A stretch of 64,000 nt of DNA from Candidatus Poribacteria bacterium (GTDB lineage: Bacteria; Poribacteria; WGA-4E; WGA-3G). The DNA is taken from contig JAPOQK010000032.1 in NCBI GenBank assembly GCA_026710795.1, positions 62,001 through 126,000 on the forward strand. The letters are read 5' to 3'. Shown piece by piece: positions 1 through 42,559 of the stretch. A program made the position numbers and the translations under genes. Positions within the stretch are counted from its first letter, which is position 1; the number at the start of each line of letters is the position of its first letter. The notes beneath the pieces are model-generated. The model was not told where the DNA came from and ran no database searches. It was given only the letters and a program-made list of their open reading frames with translations.

Positions 1-2
1 TT

Positions 3-290
3 GACACAACTGCATTCAAAGGTGGAGGAGTCTTAACCATTGAAATTGAAGTCGGTGGGGCAGAACCTGCTGGATCGTTTGATCTCTTTGATGAGGACGA
101 TGAACTTCCCATTGAAGGCATACCAGATGCTCTCGTTTCCGCATGGGGTGTATTACCCTGTCAGACAGATAAAATAACACACGAATTTGATACTGGCAAA
201 GTCTTTAAACTTGGTGCTACCGGTGACTGGTTTAGTGAGAAAGGAAATATTAACGCATTTCAGCTTAAAATATCTGTTGAGGAAAAATAA
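3..290 (+). CDS. C-terminal part of a third selenoprotein paralogue (5' end outside window)
   Basis: An open frame enters from the left edge and ends at TAA 288-290. Its 95 readable codons match the C-terminal domain of the next two genes. Shared features are a DTTAF/DTKAI-like start, a GSFDLFD block, a VWDI-like segment, the motif KLGATGxWFSxKG and a closing ISVEE. It is therefore the last domain of a third tandem copy; the Cys-Sec region would lie upstream of the window and cannot be checked. The next gene begins at the base after its stop codon, and the purine-rich GTTGAGGAAA at its 3' end supplies the ribosome binding site for that gene. Function is unknown; the fold looks like an all-beta sandwich, which is only an inference. 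Confidence 0.8.
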   Translation, partial: DTTAFKGGGVLTIEIEVGGAEPAGSFDLFDEDDELPIEGIPDALVSAWGVLPCQTDKITHEFDTGKVFKLGATGDWFSEKGNINAFQLKISVEEK

Positions 291-1919
291 GTGAATACAC
301 ATTCTAACAAAATCATACTCAACATTTCCCCGAATGATACTATTATAGTGAAGGGTAATATCACACCAATTACACTCACACAAAACGATTTCCATGAGGA
401 ATGGGAAGCATTGGCAAACTTTCGGATTGCGGAACCTGAAAGGGAATATACGACTTCAACTTTCCAATCTTTTCTCACTAATAAATCAATTTCAGTTGGT
501 GATGTCTGGCAGATTGATGAAGAGGGTGTCATGGAGTTACTTCGACAGATTCATCCAAACCCTAACCTGAAAATGTCAATTAATGCAGGAGATTCTTGTG
601 GGTTATGGGCATGTCTGCGGGCTTATAATGACAAGTTGGTAGACATTCAATTTCGCTTACATGCGGAGTTTAAGTTTGATGATGGACGGTTTACACCTTC
701 TCAGTTTACGGGGAAACTAATTATTGACCGAATACAACAAAAAGTTGATTATTTCAAGATGTATGTTCCCGAAGGCACAGTGAACTTTGATGTCGCGTGG
801 AAAAAATATCCCGATAAACCATATAGTGTTATTGATTCTGGTTTTTGTTCTCAATTGGAACTCTCTACTGGGATACCAAATAATCTGGAGGACACAGAAT
901 TCACAGAATTTATTTCCCAAGAGGAAGCACAGAAGAAGCTAATGCGTTGTTTCTATAAGTTTGAAGAAATAAATTGGGTGTCGTTTGAAGAAGCAATAGA
1001 AATGGCGAAAACACAACACAAACCTATCCATGTTATTTCAATTGATGGTCCCCTAAAAGATGAGTCCTGCTGAGGAACAGGAAAAGGTTTGAGGGCAGTT
1101 GCTCTCTCTGATAATAAGATTATTGAATTCCTTAATGAAAACCTTATTAACACTTGGGTTTCAAATGTAGAACTAAAACGAACTGATGTCAATAAAGAAT
1201 ACTTTCCGAAGCGTTACCCTGATGATTCAAAAGGTTATGACACAACACTTCCGTTCACACAAGCAATTATGAAGGGGTGGCATCAACATTCACCTGTAGA
1301 TTGTATGGTCATATCTGCTGACTTTGAGTTATTGGGAAGTCTACCAATCAATGAGTTTAATGATATGAGCAAGTCATATCACAAATTTATTCAGGCTGCA
1401 CTATCAGGACAAAATCCTGGCTTGAATAATAAAGGTAATGCTTCACGTACAACCGATTGGTACGCTTTTTTTAACTCAGGAAAACAGGTTGCGGTGAAAA
1501 AGATACCTGAAAATAAGGTTGCGAGGTTAAATGTTGAACTCAATCCTGAACATTTAAGTCAACATGTTATGAATATATTTCGTACACCTGAACACGGTTG
1601 TCAAGATTACACTATTGTTGACATAGATACAAAAGCGATTGAATATGGTTATATGCTTAACATTGATATTCAAGTAGGGAATGCTGAACCCGCAGGTTCG
1701 TTTGATCTATTTGATGGTGATAGCGAAATACCTACAGAAGGCATCCCTCATGAAGCACTTGCCTCTGTGTGGGATATTCCTCCAGGTAAAACTGGGACAA
1801 TCCGACATCGCTGTGAGAATGGTCAACGTTTTAAATTGGGTGCTACTGGTAACTGGTTCAGTGAAAAAGGGAGTGTCAACGCCTTTTACGCAACAATTAC
1901 TGTAGAGGAGAATCAATAA
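291..1919 (+). CDS. Selenoprotein with Cys-Sec thioredoxin-like domain, copy 2 (TGA 1071-1073 read as Sec)
   Basis: Read straight through, this is one 542-residue frame with an in-frame TGA at codon 261, directly after Cys260 (local motif DESC-U-GTGKGLRA). Residues 1-225 form an N-terminal domain I do not recognise. Residues about 228-375 look like a thioredoxin-7-type fold: a W-x-SFEEAIE helix, a beta-strand (IHVISID), the redox motif, then an SDxKIIEFLNE helix as in Cys thioredoxin-like proteins. Residues about 415-542 are the C-terminal domain also present in the neighbouring copies. A SECIS-like hairpin sits 17 nt after the TGA. The start is GTG at 291, immediately after the previous stop, preceded by GAGG; the N-terminus MNT matches the next copy. 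No signal peptide is seen. A redox role is inferred. The alternative, a pseudogene with a nonsense mutation, is unlikely because the paralogue has the same TGA. Confidence 0.87.
1091..1106 (+). promoter_or_regulatory. SECIS-like hairpin after Sec codon 1071-1073
   Basis: GAGGGC (1091-1096) pairs with GCTCTC (1101-1106), including one G-U pair, around the 4-nt loop AGTT. The stem begins 17 nt after the TGA. Bacterial SECIS elements lie inside the coding region just downstream of UGA and carry a guanine near the start of the apical loop, which is seen here. The stem is kept in the paralogous gene at the same spacing, with paired-base changes. Confidence 0.78.
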
Positions 1920-3506
1920 TTGAATACGCCATCCAAAAGAATCTCACTCAATCTCAATGGTAACGAAACAGTATCTGTGAAAGGTCTCATTGCACCGATC
2001 GAACATACCCTATCCCATTTCCATAAAGAATGGGATGCGTTAGCAAATCTTCGGGTTGTTGAACCGGAGAAGAAATATCCGACATCGGTATTTCAATGTT
2101 TCTTACCAGCAGAATCGGTTTCCGTAGGTGATTGCTGGCAAATTGGAGAAAATGGGGTTTTGGAATTACTTCGTCAACTAAATCCTAATCCAAATTTGGA
2201 TTTGGACATGGACCATGGGGATTCCTATGGTTTGTGGGCATGTCTGCGTGGTTACAACGATAGGTTTGCTGATATTCAGTTTCGTATTCACGCAGATTTC
2301 AAATTGAAAGACGGTTGGTTTACACCATCGCAGTTTAAGGGAAATCTGAGAATCAACAGAATTGAAGAAGAGATTTCTTTATTTCAAATGTATGTCCCCG
2401 ATGGCACAGTGAACTTTGATGTCAATTGGCATGAGGACAAAAACGAGGACTATACTATTACGGATGCGGGTTTTTGTTCCCAAATGGAACTTTGGACAGG
2501 AGTAGAAGATAATACAGAAAGCATTGATCTTACAGAGTCAATAACCCAAGATGAAGCAGAACGTGCGCTCAATTTACGTTTCTACAAATCAGATCTAATC
2601 AACTGGGTTTCACCTTTCCAAGTAGTAGCGTCTGCAGAAGAACAAGGAAAGTTAATCCATGTAATATCAATAGACGGTCCGTTGCGTGATGAGTCTTGCT
2701 GAGGGAGTGGCAAAGGCTTGAGGGCAGGTGTCCTCTCGGATGACAAAGTGATTAAATTCTTGAATGATAAATTCATCAATGTATGGGTTTCCAATGTTGA
2801 ATTAGAACGAACACCCAGAAAAAAAGCATACATGGCAGAAAGGAGAAAGGATTTACCTAATGCGTTTGATAGATCACATCCTTTTGCAAAACCTATTATG
2901 GAGGGTTGGACAGAACATTCACCGGTGGATTGCTTGGTTATTTCTCCAGAATTCGATGTCATGGGTAAACTACAGTTGAATAACTTCTTTGATGACTGTT
3001 ATAAAAGTGGAATTTCAGATGAGGTGGGATATCTGACTTTCCTAAACGCCTCATTAGATGTGAAGTTCCCCGGTTTTAATGAGAATACATCAACTGATCC
3101 TCTGTTGACAGGTGCAAATATTGTTCTTGATAGTGAACATCATGAGGAAAATGTCTTACACATTCTACGTGCACCAAGACACGGAGAGCAAGACTATAAT
3201 GTCATTACAATTGATACCACAGCCTTTGAAAATGGTGGGACACTAACAATTGAGATACAAATGGGGAGTGCCATTTCTGGCGGTTCATTTGATCTATTTG
3301 ATAACGATACAGAATTACCTACAAAAGGCACTCCAACTGAGACAGTCGCATCTGTATGGGATATTCCCTCGGGACAGAAGGGAACAATACACTACCAATT
3401 TGACAAAGGTATTATCTTTAAATTAGGTGCTACTGGCACTTGGTTCAGCGGAAAAGGCAATATCAATGCATTTCATGCGAAAATCTCGGTTGAGGAGAAT
3501 TATTAA
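1920..3506 (+). CDS. Selenoprotein with Cys-Sec thioredoxin-like domain, copy 3 (TGA 2700-2702 read as Sec)
   Basis: A single 528-residue frame carries one in-frame TGA at codon 261, again directly after Cys260 (DESC-U-GSGKGLRA). The domain order matches the preceding copy: an unknown N-terminal domain (1-225), a thioredoxin-like domain (about 228-375, with a conserved HSPVDC segment after the redox helix) and the C-terminal GSFDLFD / KLGATGTWFS domain. Overall similarity to copy 2 is clear but far from identical, so the duplication is old and both copies look maintained. The start is TTG at 1920, directly after the TAA of copy 2, with GAGGAG seven bases upstream; MNT at the N-terminus is shared. 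The zero-length junction suggests translational coupling. No selA, selB, selC or selD gene lies in the window. The biochemical substrate cannot be deduced. Confidence 0.87.
2720..2735 (+). promoter_or_regulatory. SECIS-like hairpin after Sec codon 2700-2702
   Basis: GAGGGC (2720-2725) pairs with GTCCTC (2730-2735), with one G-U pair, closing the loop AGGT. It starts 17 nt after the TGA, exactly as in the upstream paralogue. Relative to that copy the 3' arm differs at two positions, yet both changes keep pairing through G-C/G-U exchange, which is what selection on RNA structure would leave. Confidence 0.78.
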
Positions 3507-21479: not shown

Positions 21480-23096
21480 TTATGAAAGTCCAGCAGCATG
21501 TCTTCGTGTGGCTGGGTCACCAGCAGCATAAAATGTTCCACTATCCTGATCGACGTATATCATAACAGGTACTGCAATAGGATTTGAATGTGCATTTACC
21601 TTATGTCCACGTGAAGCAAGATCTTCTCTGACTTTTTCACTCACACTATCATTTATGGTTAATGAACCTGCTTGTTTAAATGTCTGTTCTCGATTTGGAT
21701 TGGGGTCAAAAGAATCTTGATGATGTGCGGTAGCAAAACGTGGTGTAGTGACTGCCTCTTCTGGACTTAAATCAAATTCAATAAAGTTAAGAAGTAAGTT
21801 CATCGTTGTTTGGTCCTGCAAATCCCCTCCTGCGACACTGATTGCTAATACAGGAGCACCATCCTTCAGAACAAGAGTAGGTGTAAGTGTGATTCTTGGA
21901 CGTTTCCCCGGTTGGATACAATTTGGATGTCCTTGGGTTGTATTGAGACTACGTAAACGATTACCATAACTGACACCCGTTGAACCACCCAGATTCTCTT
22001 CAAAGTAAACATTTGCACTCGGTGTTGCAGAAACTACATTGCCCCATCTATCTGCAACGACACACGTTGTCGTTCCACCGATACCGGGACGAAAAACACC
22101 ACCTGATTTCAGTGGTTTCATATTATCTACATCACCCGGCATTGCTTGAAGAGACGCTTTTGCCATATCAATTAACGGTCTACGTATTTCAGTATATTCA
22201 TCGGAGAGCAAGGTTGTCATAGGAACATCAACAAAATCAGGATCAGCATAATACTCATCTCTGTCAGCCATTGCCAACTTAATTGCTTCAATTACTGTGT
22301 GTACATAGTCTGCAGAGAAATGTCCCATATCACTAAGGTTGAACCCATCTAATAAACGTAGGGCTTGAAGCAGGTAGGGACCTTGTGTCCACGTACCACA
22401 CTTGCACACTGTGTATCCACGATACTCCACTGTTACAGGATCTTCAATAAGCGTGACATGAGCAGCAAGGTCATTCTTACGAAGAAACCCTCCGTTTTGT
22501 ATGTAGAACTGTTCTAATTCATCTGAAATATCACTTTCAGCACCGTTACGTCCATAAAACCGATCGCTTGCGGCTTGCACTTTTTGTTCTCGTGTTCCAG
22601 TAGTTTTCTGTTCCTCATCAACCATTCTACGCAGTGTGATTGCCAGATTTGAATGCCACTCGGCATCACCGTGATCAAGTATTTCAAGAGTTGGATTGAC
22701 AATTTCTTCAAACGATTTCGTTCCGTACACCTTTAAGGTTGTCGTACATAGGTCAACAACCGATGGAACTGGTGCCATCTTAATATCTCCGTTAGGTATA
22801 CCGTTTTCCATATACCAATCTATAGCTTTTTGAGATAAAGGAGCACGTCCCTGCCCAGAGAGAGATTTTACCTCTTTCTTTTTTGCATCATAAATGAGGA
22901 GCGGGACCTCCCCACCAATGGAACATTCACCATGGTCGGTTACATTGAGAGCAAGAATGGTTGCTGCGGCTGCATCAGCAGCATTTCCACCTGATTCCAA
23001 TATTTCAATCCCTGCTGCGACTGCTTTAGCACCACCGGCAGCAACAACCCCTGTTTTACTTTCAGCTTTCCAGTTCATATTTTGTGTGTTTGCCAT
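21480..23096 (-). CDS. ggt: Gamma-glutamyltranspeptidase family protein
   Basis: The 538-residue Ntn-hydrolase precursor begins with GVVAAGGAKAVAAGIEILESGGNAADAAAAT (about 16-46), the usual N-terminus of the large subunit. The self-cleavage site and nucleophile is Thr342 in GIGGTTTCVVADRWGNVVSATPS, followed by the small-subunit motif RPRITLTPTLVLKDG. It hydrolyses or transfers gamma-glutamyl groups, for instance from glutathione. There is no recognisable signal peptide at this start, although many family members are periplasmic, so it may be cytoplasmic or act on another substrate. It lies 30 nt downstream of the membrane protein on the same strand. Confidence 0.88.
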   Translation of the reverse strand: MANTQNMNWKAESKTGVVAAGGAKAVAAGIEILESGGNAADAAAATILALNVTDHGECSIGGEVPLLIYDAKKKEVKSLSGQGRAPLSQKAIDWYMENGIPNGDIKMAPVPSVVDLCTTTLKVYGTKSFEEIVNPTLEILDHGDAEWHSNLAITLRRMVDEEQKTTGTREQKVQAASDRFYGRNGAESDISDELEQFYIQNGGFLRKNDLAAHVTLIEDPVTVEYRGYTVCKCGTWTQGPYLLQALRLLDGFNLSDMGHFSADYVHTVIEAIKLAMADRDEYYADPDFVDVPMTTLLSDEYTEIRRPLIDMAKASLQAMPGDVDNMKPLKSGGVFRPGIGGTTTCVVADRWGNVVSATPSANVYFEENLGGSTGVSYGNRLRSLNTTQGHPNCIQPGKRPRITLTPTLVLKDGAPVLAISVAGGDLQDQTTMNLLLNFIEFDLSPEEAVTTPRFATAHHQDSFDPNPNREQTFKQAGSLTINDSVSEKVREDLASRGHKVNAHSNPIAVPVMIYVDQDSGTFYAAGDPATRRHAAGLS

Positions 23097-23126
23097 ACCT
23101 TTTCCTATATAAATTTTGAAGATTAA

Positions 23127-25220
23127 TCATTTCTCAGTTTCTTCACGGAGATTATTGAGTATGTTGTCATCAATAGATTTAATGGTAAATCCACTCCATA
23201 CCCACATACGATTTCTACCTTTACCACTCTTATAAATTACTTGAGTCAGTTGTTCATCAATCACATTGATAATATAACGCTCTTCAATTCCCTTACTTCC
23301 CACAGGGATGTATAATTCCTTGATTCTCCTCTCGCCATTTGCTAATAGGTTTACTTCTAAAGGATTAGATTCACTACCACCAAAATAGCAAATTACCTCA
23401 TACGTTCCATTCGGTAGTGTGACCCGAAAAACTGCATCTTCCTTACCCATAATACTGTCATCATACAACTGTTGTTCTTGTGAATCACCTTTATAACCAC
23501 TTTTGACTGACTTTGTCAACCAACCGTATTTTCCATCAGTGTAGTTTGTATCAGTATGTACTGGAATATATCCAGGAATGGTCTGTGCTCCATTGGGTTG
23601 CATGTCAAATGCATAAACGGCTTCATCTTTTACTGTCACTGGATCTTGTATGATACGTTTTTGCTTATATAAACGATTGTATTCATTAGAATCAATGAGA
23701 TCATACTCCTCCTCAAGTCCTTCAACATCATCATATTCTGTCCTCCATACAATGATGTAATCTGATGGTAATTCCTTCTGCTTATACCGTAAAGGAAAAT
23801 GATCTGTATTTGCTTCGTAGTTGTTTAGATATGCAATTCCCATCTCAACTATCAATAAACATTCAATATGTCCAAAAGGTTCAACATATTTCGGTACATA
23901 TCCAAGCGAATCTGACATGCCACCCCATTCTCCCGGAAAACTTGAAAGTATAGTGTGCTTTTCATTAATACCTTCTAAAGAGAGTGCATTGGTGATGTCA
24001 TGATTCAACTTCGTATATGTGTGTACATTGTAACCAATATGCAATAAAGACAGTAAAATGATAACACCTGTCATGATGTAGTTGATATACCGGTGTAGAT
24101 TCATAGAGAAAAAAGGCAGTAAGATGAGGAATATGTAAATATGAAATCGATCATTGATCCAACCCCCACTATAACCAGACCAAGGCGACATGAAATACAG
24201 TGCTGTAACAAGGGCTGTTAATATCAAGAAACCATCAGTTATAGTTATAATACCGATCCAATGACGTAAACCTGATGATTCAGATTGATTTCGATATTTC
24301 CCCATCCTGTTGATTACTGTAATTATAATTGATATAGCGAATGCAATCAGTAATATTTGTCCTATTAACACATGTTCATCCCGAAATGAAACCAATGATT
24401 TCATTGAGAGGAAGTAGTTAATCAACCATTCAAAACCCCGATGGTCACCCTCACTTCCATGTGTATGAACAAGGTAAATGTAATAAGTGAAAAGTATACA
24501 ATATGCGGGTAGAAGGACTAAGGCGAAAAGTAATGATGGTTTTAGTTTAATCCCAAATTCCTTCAATCTTTGCATAAGTGTATGTGTCATTTTCGGTCCG
24601 CTAAATGTCTTCTGAAGGTAATTATATAGAGATGAGAATAGTAAAAGGACGGTAAGTGATATGAGAAGTAGTGCATAAGAATGGTAGTGTGTGAAATAAG
24701 TTGCAATCAGGAATATATATATCACACTGATGCGCTTCCAATTTATATTGTCCTTGACTTTCCACCAGTATCCTAATGTAAAGAAGTAAAGTGACATACT
24801 CAGAACAAAGTTATAAAATCCCATGTGCAGTAAATAGTTATAAGCAAAAATAAAACCAACAAAACCGAATAAAATATTATTTTTCTGTACATTGTTGAGA
24901 AAATAGAAAAGAGATAAGGGCAGGAGACCAATGCAAAGTGAAAGAACAATCTTTTCACATACAATCGGTGGGAAAATATACATTAACGAGGCTAATAAGA
25001 CATGCGATGTCCAGTTAGGAAACAGTGTCTTATTCAATTCATATACTTCACGCAATCGGTAGTTTTCATGTTTATGATATTCTTTCAGAATATATGCGTT
25101 ATAGATATGACTTGCACCATCCTGAGTGGGAAAATATCTAATGCCCCATACTGGAAATAAATGTATCACAAGTAAAACACAGACTGTGAAATATGCTAAA
25201 GTTTTTCTATCAACCTTCAT
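23127..25220 (-). CDS. Multi-pass membrane protein, GT-C glycosyltransferase-like, with C-terminal carbohydrate-binding-like domain
   Basis: A 697-residue protein. Residues 1-420 contain about ten hydrophobic helices with the layout of GT-C (PMT/ArnT-like) transferases: a first helix, then a loop with YFPTQDGASHIYNAY holding an acidic residue (DGASH), then paired helices. Residues about 420-530 form a soluble region, and 530-690 resemble a malectin or CBM35-like galactose-binding sandwich (DGKYGWL, VFRVTLPNGTYEVICYFGG, WVWSGFTIK). A lipid-linked sugar transfer role is inferred from architecture only. The start ATG has AGAGGATAA upstream. Confidence 0.65.
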   Translation of the reverse strand: MKVDRKTLAYFTVCVLLVIHLFPVWGIRYFPTQDGASHIYNAYILKEYHKHENYRLREVYELNKTLFPNWTSHVLLASLMYIFPPIVCEKIVLSLCIGLLPLSLFYFLNNVQKNNILFGFVGFIFAYNYLLHMGFYNFVLSMSLYFFTLGYWWKVKDNINWKRISVIYIFLIATYFTHYHSYALLLISLTVLLLFSSLYNYLQKTFSGPKMTHTLMQRLKEFGIKLKPSLLFALVLLPAYCILFTYYIYLVHTHGSEGDHRGFEWLINYFLSMKSLVSFRDEHVLIGQILLIAFAISIIITVINRMGKYRNQSESSGLRHWIGIITITDGFLILTALVTALYFMSPWSGYSGGWINDRFHIYIFLILLPFFSMNLHRYINYIMTGVIILLSLLHIGYNVHTYTKLNHDITNALSLEGINEKHTILSSFPGEWGGMSDSLGYVPKYVEPFGHIECLLIVEMGIAYLNNYEANTDHFPLRYKQKELPSDYIIVWRTEYDDVEGLEEEYDLIDSNEYNRLYKQKRIIQDPVTVKDEAVYAFDMQPNGAQTIPGYIPVHTDTNYTDGKYGWLTKSVKSGYKGDSQEQQLYDDSIMGKEDAVFRVTLPNGTYEVICYFGGSESNPLEVNLLANGERRIKELYIPVGSKGIEERYIINVIDEQLTQVIYKSGKGRNRMWVWSGFTIKSIDDNILNNLREETEK

Positions 25221-41341: not shown

Positions 41342-42559
41342 ATGAACACATCTATTATTATTATTCTTACGACATACGTTCTCTTCATTCTTGAGGTGTT
41401 GCTGATTAGTCAATCATTTTTCTATACACGTCGAGAACGTAAAACAGAAAGACCATCTTACACACCAACAGTTGCTATAATTGCGCCACATTATGGTTGG
41501 GATGATGCAACTGCTGAACATACTGAGAGTCTGTTTCAACAAGATTATGATGGTGATTTTCGGATATACTTTGTAACTCATGATAATGATGGTACAGGGC
41601 ATGATGTCTCATATCCACATTTACAGCAACTTGTGAAAGATGTTCCACATGCTGATGTTTTTTTAGCACCAAATATTATAGATAATAACCTTCCGCGTTC
41701 TCAAAAGGTGCAAAACCTTATTACCGTGATTGAAAAATTACCTCAAGACATTGAGGTAATAGCATTTGTTGATGCAGATGTTTCAATACAAAAGGATTGG
41801 CTAAAACTGCTTGTATCTCCACTTCAGGATCAGTCAATAGGGGCAACAGTTGGGGGTAGATTCTATTTTCCGCAGACATGGAACTTTCCATCACTTGTTG
41901 AAGCAACATGGGTCAACTTTCAGATGGCATTGCAGGGAGATCACTGGCTAACGATGGTGTGGGGTGGATCTAATGCCTTTAGACGTGAATTTCTTGAAAA
42001 AGGACAGATCCTACAACGTTGGGAACAAGCGACTGTTGAAGATTTAAACACTACCCGTGCTGTCAGAGATGTTAAAAGAAAAATACATTTCGTTCCTGAC
42101 TGTGTAGCTGTTACGCGTACGTCAAACAGAACATGGAGGCAGATATTCGAGTTCACCAATAGGCAGATGATAATGACATGTCACATGGGATTGTGGGCAC
42201 AGTGGTTCGGTAGCTTAATACTATTCTTGCCAAAAGCGTTTTTGGTTATTGGATCAATTCCATTTGCTATTCTATCTATTGGAACACAAACGGGACTCCT
42301 TCCGGTAGTATTAATACCTATCTTTGAAGTGCTGGGTTTCCGATTGTGTTGCAGAAATCTACCACTATGGTTACGAGAAATGCCAAAAGTGCAAGACACA
42401 CTACGTATAAGTAAATATGCAGCTCCGTTTTCTATATTCCTTGCAGGTATCAATGCATTTTATGCAATGTTTCAACGAAAGATTGTCTGGGGTGGTGTCC
42501 GTTATGAAATACTATCTGCAACCACATGCAAGGTTTTAGGACGCGTTAAGGATAAATAG
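41342..42559 (+). CDS. Membrane-associated family 2 glycosyltransferase (ceramide glucosyltransferase-like)
   Basis: A 405-residue protein: N-terminal helix (about 4-22), a GT-A domain with VAIIAPHYGWDD (about 42-53), the metal-binding DADV in VIAFVDADVSIQKDWL (about 140-155), AFRREFLEKG acceptor region and a VEDLNTTRAV segment in place of ED-x-x-L, then C-terminal helices (about 285-335 and 355-380). The Q-x-x-R-W motif is only approximated by NRQM. Resembles HpnI or ceramide glucosyltransferase-type enzymes that glycosylate lipids; acceptor unknown. Confidence 0.82.
   Translation: MNTSIIIILTTYVLFILEVLLISQSFFYTRRERKTERPSYTPTVAIIAPHYGWDDATAEHTESLFQQDYDGDFRIYFVTHDNDGTGHDVSYPHLQQLVKDVPHADVFLAPNIIDNNLPRSQKVQNLITVIEKLPQDIEVIAFVDADVSIQKDWLKLLVSPLQDQSIGATVGGRFYFPQTWNFPSLVEATWVNFQMALQGDHWLTMVWGGSNAFRREFLEKGQILQRWEQATVEDLNTTRAVRDVKRKIHFVPDCVAVTRTSNRTWRQIFEFTNRQMIMTCHMGLWAQWFGSLILFLPKAFLVIGSIPFAILSIGTQTGLLPVVLIPIFEVLGFRLCCRNLPLWLREMPKVQDTLRISKYAAPFSIFLAGINAFYAMFQRKIVWGGVRYEILSATTCKVLGRVKDK

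Follow-up and report, generated by a model that had tools for sequence, protein, structure and literature searches.

A tandem array of probable selenoprotein-N-like genes with in-frame TGA codons in a Candidatus Poribacteria genome

Two adjacent genes at the start of a 64,000-nt stretch of DNA from Candidatus Poribacteria bacterium (hereafter the window; bases 62001-126000 of the 158-kb contig C27 in a 4.7-Mb draft genome) each contain exactly one in-frame TGA, at codon 261 directly after Cys260, which raises the question of whether this codon is read as selenocysteine (Sec), to which family the proteins belong and what chemistry they perform. The single TGA and its position, claimed by a first-pass annotation of the window, were read directly in both genes, where the Sec context is SCU-G-[TS]-G-K-G-L-R. 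The same annotation had described a tandem triplicate of an undescribed selenoprotein family. Three genes do lie within the window, and the paralogue cut by its edge is the 3′ end of the third gene of the array, but the triplicate turned out to be part of an array of five tandem genes in the same direction, two of them complete inside the window, and the same genome has a sixth copy on a separate contig (C70). Our analysis supported Sec at codon 261, based on a selABCD set, a likely Sec insertion sequence (SECIS) and purifying selection past the TGA, and very probably identified the genes as members of a bacterial family of Sec-containing, selenoprotein-N-like proteins that are homologous to animal selenoprotein N in its core.

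TGA codons flanked on both sides by ~70 or more open codons occurred just four times in the whole window and two of these were the family codons, which excluded a chance origin of the TGAs in the two window genes. All five array genes carried Cys-TGA in the context [SA]CU[GA][ST]G[KR]xLR, and letter-by-letter reading of fetched loci found TGA at the Sec place in 63 of 64 aligned sequences. The genome check suggested with the first-pass annotation located all four components of Sec decoding: tRNA-Sec (selC, 73.9 bits), SelB (361.3 bits), SelA (611.9 bits) and SelD (354.4 bits), with tRNA-Sec and SelB adjacent to each other 2.7-2.8 kb beyond the window end. The selD gene (L078, C43:17522-18448) has its own in-frame TGA, so that the host selenophosphate synthetase is itself apparently a selenoprotein. 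The ratio of nonsynonymous to synonymous substitution rates (dN/dS; Nei-Gojobori method, own script) in four pairs was ~0.12-0.23 after the TGA and 0.13-0.19 before it, indicating that the downstream half is selected as protein.

These data also bear on two other readings of the codon. If UGA were a genuine stop, the genes would be split, decayed or termination-regulated and the downstream half would not be made, a view in line with the ATG-started frames that exist beyond the TGA and with a few matches elsewhere that are fragments, one of them with a second stop. The closely similar dN/dS on both sides of the codon and the retention of TGA in 401 of 408 matches in the phylum make this very improbable. 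Reassignment of UGA, or its readthrough as an ordinary amino acid, would agree with the location of the TGA inside long conserved frames, but TGA occurs only once in each window gene and after Cys, the genome has the complete Sec machinery, and a stem-loop follows the TGA at fixed spacing. Moreover, the first two array genes terminate in TGA, so that the same codon would serve as both Sec and stop within one array and is not generally reassigned; we regard this reading as the least probable of all those considered here, with almost no chance of being correct. Two other TGA codons were seen in long open frames of the window. On the minus strand, two long same-frame genes at 21483-25220 are split by a TGA at ~23127 with the next ATG nearby, which looks like an ordinary stop; at ~42181, also on the minus strand, a TGA flanked by 92 and 79 open codons lies opposite the plus-strand gene 41342-42556 and probably arose by chance.

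Downstream of the Sec codon, an alignment of 64 sequences (44 of 63 distinct members and 20 of 26 further rows, six unrelated chance rows having been dropped) showed a 6-bp stem (alignment columns 51-56/61-66) at constant spacing. The stem lies 18-33 nt past the TGA, and the loop, mostly AGGU or AGUU, starts 23 nt downstream of the UGA. Paired cells (95.1% compared with 91.5% in shuffled alignments), both-sided changes (11 compared with 1.9) and covariation (0.211 compared with 0.128) were each reached by 0 of 500 shuffles, and all six slid versions of the stem formed fewer pairs (46-78% of cells). The stem-loop is thus a likely, though not proven, bacterial SECIS; the element is visible within the reading frame, where it would direct decoding of UGA as Sec by SelA, SelB, tRNA-Sec and SelD. 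Several observations weigh against this assignment. The number of pairs with a both-sided change (2, reached in 54 of 500 shuffles) and of further pair types (5, reached in 407 of 500) was not above shuffles, RNAalifold favoured a different pairing that includes the UGA itself, and in six deep-branch rows two or three of the six stem pairs are not formed. Single-sequence folding yielded the stem in three of five genes of this genome, the other two, including the fifth gene, folding otherwise, with folding z-scores of the five between −1.30 and +0.92. In addition, among the copies described below that have Gly or Ser in place of Sec, three Gly copies and the Ser copy retain both stem and loop and two Gly copies retain the stem with a changed loop, suggesting that part of the stem-loop conservation may reflect coding constraint.

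A search with a 131-residue query around the Sec codon detected the family in 64 of 84 Poribacteria genomes, with 408 matches in total and 1-15 per genome, which, along with the five-gene array and the sixth copy, bears out the earlier description of a clustered and expanded family. Repeating the search in three sets (139, 135 and 134 matches) gave an in-frame TGA in 401 of the 408 matches, a count of TGA anywhere inside the match, the exact Sec place having been read in the fetched loci only. Matches are not equal to genes: one gene of G060 apparently accounts for two rows, a row from G033 also contains a TAG, and some rows are short. Of the seven matches lacking TGA, the five copies L087-L091 encode Gly (GGA or GGC) and L094, the same gene as in L032, encodes Ser (TCA); the remaining one, L092, is a broken copy in which Cys (TGT) occupies the Sec place and the sequence diverges from the family directly afterwards. 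Homologues with Cys or Sec at this position, as anticipated in the first-pass annotation, were found in an unusual form: nearly all have Sec, apart from the five Gly copies, the Ser copy and the broken copy, in which Cys appears just at the point of divergence. No intact Cys form was present among the 408 matches in the 64 genomes, in a search confined to this phylum. The Gly copies (G060, G054, G055, G074 and G078) have the motif EACG[GA]SGK and keep the preceding Cys; GGA at the Sec codon is one base change away from TGA. They possibly represent a non-redox branch.

All twenty genomes with no family match belong outside the host's family. Matches to tRNA-Sec (E 1e-7) were obtained in 74 of the 84 genomes of the phylum and in 57 of the 64 that have the family; it was not found, at stricter filters, in the other seven (G029, G032, G035, G048, G059, G060 and G077), all multi-contig drafts, which counts against Sec decoding throughout the family. 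Two or three tRNA-Sec matches each, some at or below the cut-off, were seen in the distant phylum genomes G002, G003, G004, G006, G007, G008 and G011. A scan of named genomes with six short peptide patterns from one protein returned 2 loci, both from Candidatus Poribacteria, and is too narrow to say anything on the presence of the family in other phyla. The plasmids and viral contigs searched contained no relatives.

To which known proteins is this family related? The comparison with selenoprotein N used a fragment of the human protein that was not taken from a database; it agreed at all five published positions against which it was checked: R466 and R291 (PMC8967691), G315, taken from c.943 (PMC12839072), and the glycosylated Asn449 and Asn497 (PMC7474598), for which the Sec428 numbering was inferred. 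The match of a profile of 20 family members to this fragment scored 157.3 bits (E 3.2e-47, in a set of 1001) and covered two collinear stretches, profile positions 105-194 and 199-306, with Sec aligned on Sec; of 1000 shuffles, none was reported at E up to 10. In blastp of the fragment against 79 family cores, the best E was 5.7e-43, with ~27-35% identity in the main rows among the matches listed. The family motif, [SA]CU[GA][STND]G[KR], lies within the thioredoxin-like domain. Its form in seven rows that make up a deep clade (L042, L043, L058, L059, L071, L073 and L074) is WG[APC]LD[DN]ESCUA[ND]GK, by eye the nearest to the human motif, although the blastp scores did not set this clade apart from the rest. 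The family can consequently no longer be called undescribed in its N-terminal and thioredoxin-like domains, both of which match the human fragment by profile, nor its N-terminal domain unknown, as the first-pass annotation had it. In the gene 1920-3506, Cys108 (window 2241-2243, in LWACLR) is invariant in 20 aligned members and is Leu in the human selenoprotein N fragment; it is a possible extra redox partner.

The whole-protein model of the fifth gene (predicted local distance difference test score, pLDDT, 79.1; predicted template-modelling score 0.68) was judged from its secondary structure to consist of a beta domain at the N-terminus, a thioredoxin-like domain in the middle and a beta-sandwich at the C-terminus. 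When the middle domain was modelled in isolation (pLDDT 84.8), Foldseek matched it to 7tkv (DsbH domain, E 4.5e-5), 2lst (thioredoxin, 6.9e-4), 2ju5 (DsbH, 2.2e-3) and 2dlx (UAS), at 2.9e-3; anterior-gradient structures were also among the best PDB matches, and three matches had E 0.001 or better. The proposed thioredoxin-like segment around the Cys-Sec pair was thus recovered in the model, where the pair follows the first strand and precedes the subsequent helix. A structure search of BFVD gave nothing at E 0.001. The repeated C-terminal domain also stood, as two copies of it are present in the third array gene. Array members of G013 and G014, in contrast, have frames of 360-403 codons that lack this domain. 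Short frames of 130-291 residues, one with an internal stop, contain the C-terminal beta domain without the redox domain (L064, L066, L069 and L072). The weak whole-protein matches to lectin-like and collagen-binding proteins, mentioned below, were not taken as indicating function, and a match to IcmX (NCBIfam, E 0.004, 16.3 bits against a cut-off of 500) was regarded as noise.

Three kinds of observation pull against kinship with selenoprotein N and the function proposed from it: the homology to the human protein depends on a fragment not taken from a database; the Foldseek template-modelling scores of the middle domain were modest (0.37-0.47 of the query) and whole-protein Foldseek was weak, with lectin-like and collagen-binding beta-sandwich domains as best matches; and the gene neighbours (leuC/leuD-like genes, propeller proteins and extracytoplasmic function (ECF) sigma factors) gave no pointer to a substrate or function. 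Single-protein and profile sequence searches of Pfam, NCBIfam and PDB were nearly silent. The lack of any Pfam match at E 1 for both window proteins, of anything worth naming in NCBIfam and of more than one match (E 0.68) among PDB sequences, together with a C-terminal domain to which nothing in the selenoprotein N match corresponds, could point to a new selenoprotein family unrelated to selenoprotein N, with SCUG reached by convergence within the thioredoxin superfamily. Set against this are the match of two collinear domains at 3.2e-47 and the agreement of the fragment with the five published residue positions; as the match includes the N-terminal beta domain, convergent evolution of a redox motif would not account for it. 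An unrelated family is improbable on this evidence, and homology to the core of selenoprotein N remains the strongly favoured identity.

For the chemistry alone, fold and motif make a predicted Cys-Sec disulfide reductase or isomerase the probable, though by no means assured, answer. The pair is placed by the model in a thioredoxin/UAS/DsbH-type domain, where Cys260-Sec261 would cycle between a selenenylsulfide and a selenolate-thiol, and the protein would reduce or isomerize disulfides of substrates that are probably selected by the N-terminal beta domain and by the C-terminal beta-sandwich, present once or twice per protein. The same selenoprotein-N-like fold could also operate with no disulfide chemistry, the Cys-Sec pair binding a metal or reducing peroxide and the beta domains being the working parts; this concerns the chemistry alone and is compatible with the identity preferred above. 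The persistence of five Gly copies and one Ser copy argues that the scaffold can be kept without Sec, and no redox partner was seen among the neighbours. However, neither alignment shows any exception to Cys260, Sec is almost as constant, and the fold neighbours are thiol-disulfide proteins, leaving this alternative with a minor but appreciable share of the probability.

The bacterial family has several features in common with animal selenoprotein N (SELENON/SEPN1): the N-terminal beta domain, a thioredoxin-like domain that bears the Cys-Sec motif SCUG, R/K four residues past Sec and Asn at Sec+21 (PMC8967691, PMC7474598, PMC12839072). It differs in that the two window proteins have no EF-hand detectable by Pfam at E 1 and, by eye, no transmembrane anchor or leader, one bacterial clade having a signal peptide instead. 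Selenoprotein N has a SECIS in its 3′ untranslated region, whereas the bacterial family has the in-frame stem-loop. What is distinctive compared with selenoprotein N is the extra C-terminal beta-sandwich, sometimes present twice, and the multiplication to up to 15 matches per genome. The fold of the central domain is shared with UAS, DsbH (DUF255) and anterior-gradient thioredoxin-like domains, and a weak Pfam match to DsbH (PF03190) in 10 of 40 members (best E 0.0057) fits the predicted fold. To our knowledge, those domains have CxxC or related motifs, and neither an adjacent Cys-Sec pair nor such an N-terminal beta domain. Mammalian thioredoxin reductase, a flavoprotein with a different fold, has its motif at the C-terminus. 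Its vicinal Cys-Sec-Gly is shared with the family, GCUG being compared with SCUG in PMC12839072. Adjacent Cys-Sec pairs (“CU” in Table 1 of PMC13188914) are also found in KCU-star, SaoC, SaoL, MbdU, HgcA and CopZ form 2, which have different named domains.

Selenoprotein N was described in 2007 as animal-specific (PMC2375036), and the 119-entry table of prokaryotic selenoprotein families in a 2026 inventory (PMC13188914) has, in the portion available, no selenoprotein-N-like entry and no mention of Poribacteria. The largest bacterial selenoproteomes named in that inventory have 57 and 63 genes, so that the Poribacteria family sets no record. The available parts of PMC4807772, PMC9312934 and PMC3316567 added nothing on bacterial selenoprotein N. 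A literature search returned nothing joining Poribacteria with selenoprotein N or with selenoproteins. As far as the literature was searched, neither the bacterial branch nor its C-terminal domain or multiplication seems to have been reported; selenoprotein-N-like proteins in bacteria are reportedly mentioned in a 2010 review by Shchedrina and colleagues. Poribacteria are sponge symbionts. SelA and SelB co-occur in most sponge-symbiont bins and are missing from most related references (PMC5649159, in which the word selenoprotein does not occur), and the present family offers clients for this Sec machinery.

The ~400 Sec matches with no intact Cys form in the phylum are odd beside the published view that every known selenoprotein seems to have a Cys homologue (PMC12013277), and they suggest a blind spot of prediction. 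The deep-Sep authors note of their own filter that families without Cys homologues may be dropped (PMC12013277); such a requirement of prediction tools may explain the gap. We also considered a direct shared history of animal selenoprotein N and Poribacteria, in which the gene may have been transferred between bacteria of this kind and an early animal, and an effectively Sec-only bacterial branch would escape searches that rely on Cys/Sec pairs; this scenario is tentative and rather unlikely. Selenoprotein N, a poorly understood protein linked to inherited myopathies, had no solved structure in 2020 (PMC7474598), and a sequence search of PDB found none. Hundreds of natural bacterial variants, some with frames of 360-400 codons, could therefore provide an easier system for work on structure and activity.

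A tree of 79 cores built by a quick method grouped the six copies of the host genome with copies of other genomes and not with one another, the fourth array gene, for instance, with a copy in L048. The paralogues are therefore old, and the array testifies to specialisation that has been retained, not to recent duplication. In the clade that includes the C70 copy (support 98), each of the seven rows opens with a signal peptide-like stretch, as judged by eye, and L055 from outside this clade does so too, whereas the window genes had no leader by eye, suggesting that the same chemistry is used in two compartments. The positions of the array genes and their elements are collected in Table 1.

Table 1. 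Array genes and their predicted elements (window positions, except for the first row, which gives positions in locus L009)
Feature	Position	Strand	Remarks
Five array genes in locus L009	5198-6736, 6738-8258, 8260-10290, 10291-11919, 11920-13506		
Third array gene, 3′ end	1..290	+	Second copy of C-terminal beta domain; stop TAA; start upstream at L009:8260
Fourth array gene, selenoprotein-N-like	291..1919	+	542 residues with Sec261; GTG start, TAA stop
Fifth and last array gene, selenoprotein-N-like	1920..3506	+	528 residues with Sec261; TTG start, TAA stop
In-frame TGA of fourth gene, read as Sec261 after Cys260	1071..1073	+	
In-frame TGA of fifth gene, read as Sec261 after Cys260	2700..2702	+	
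SECIS-like stem-loop, fourth gene	1091..1106	+	6 bp, loop AGUU
SECIS-like stem-loop, fifth gene	2720..2735	+	6 bp, loop AGGU; minimum-energy single-sequence fold favours other pairing
Thioredoxin-like domain, fourth gene	891..1445	+	Family alignment; model and Foldseek from fifth gene
C-terminal beta-sandwich domain, fourth gene (start approximate)	1533..1916	+	Alignment; fifth-gene model
N-terminal beta domain, fifth gene (residues 105-194)	2232..2501	+	Model; selenoprotein N-matching stretch upstream of thioredoxin-like domain
Thioredoxin-like domain, fifth gene (residues 200-385)	2517..3074	+	Model, Foldseek, selenoprotein N match
C-terminal beta-sandwich domain, fifth gene (residues 400-527)	3117..3500	+	Model, Foldseek

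Within the array, the distance from each stop to the next start was at most 1 base, and the Sec codon of the third gene lies upstream of the window. The genes 5′ of the array are LeuC/LeuD-like, named by eye with an Aconitase_C match for one of them; LeuD is also found upstream of the family arrays in G045 and G070, in the latter with one extra gene in between. The exported copies (L086 on contig C70, and L080) adjoin WD40 propeller proteins and ECF sigma factors, and one neighbour of L086 is a 997-residue protein with both sigma-70 and WD40 matches.

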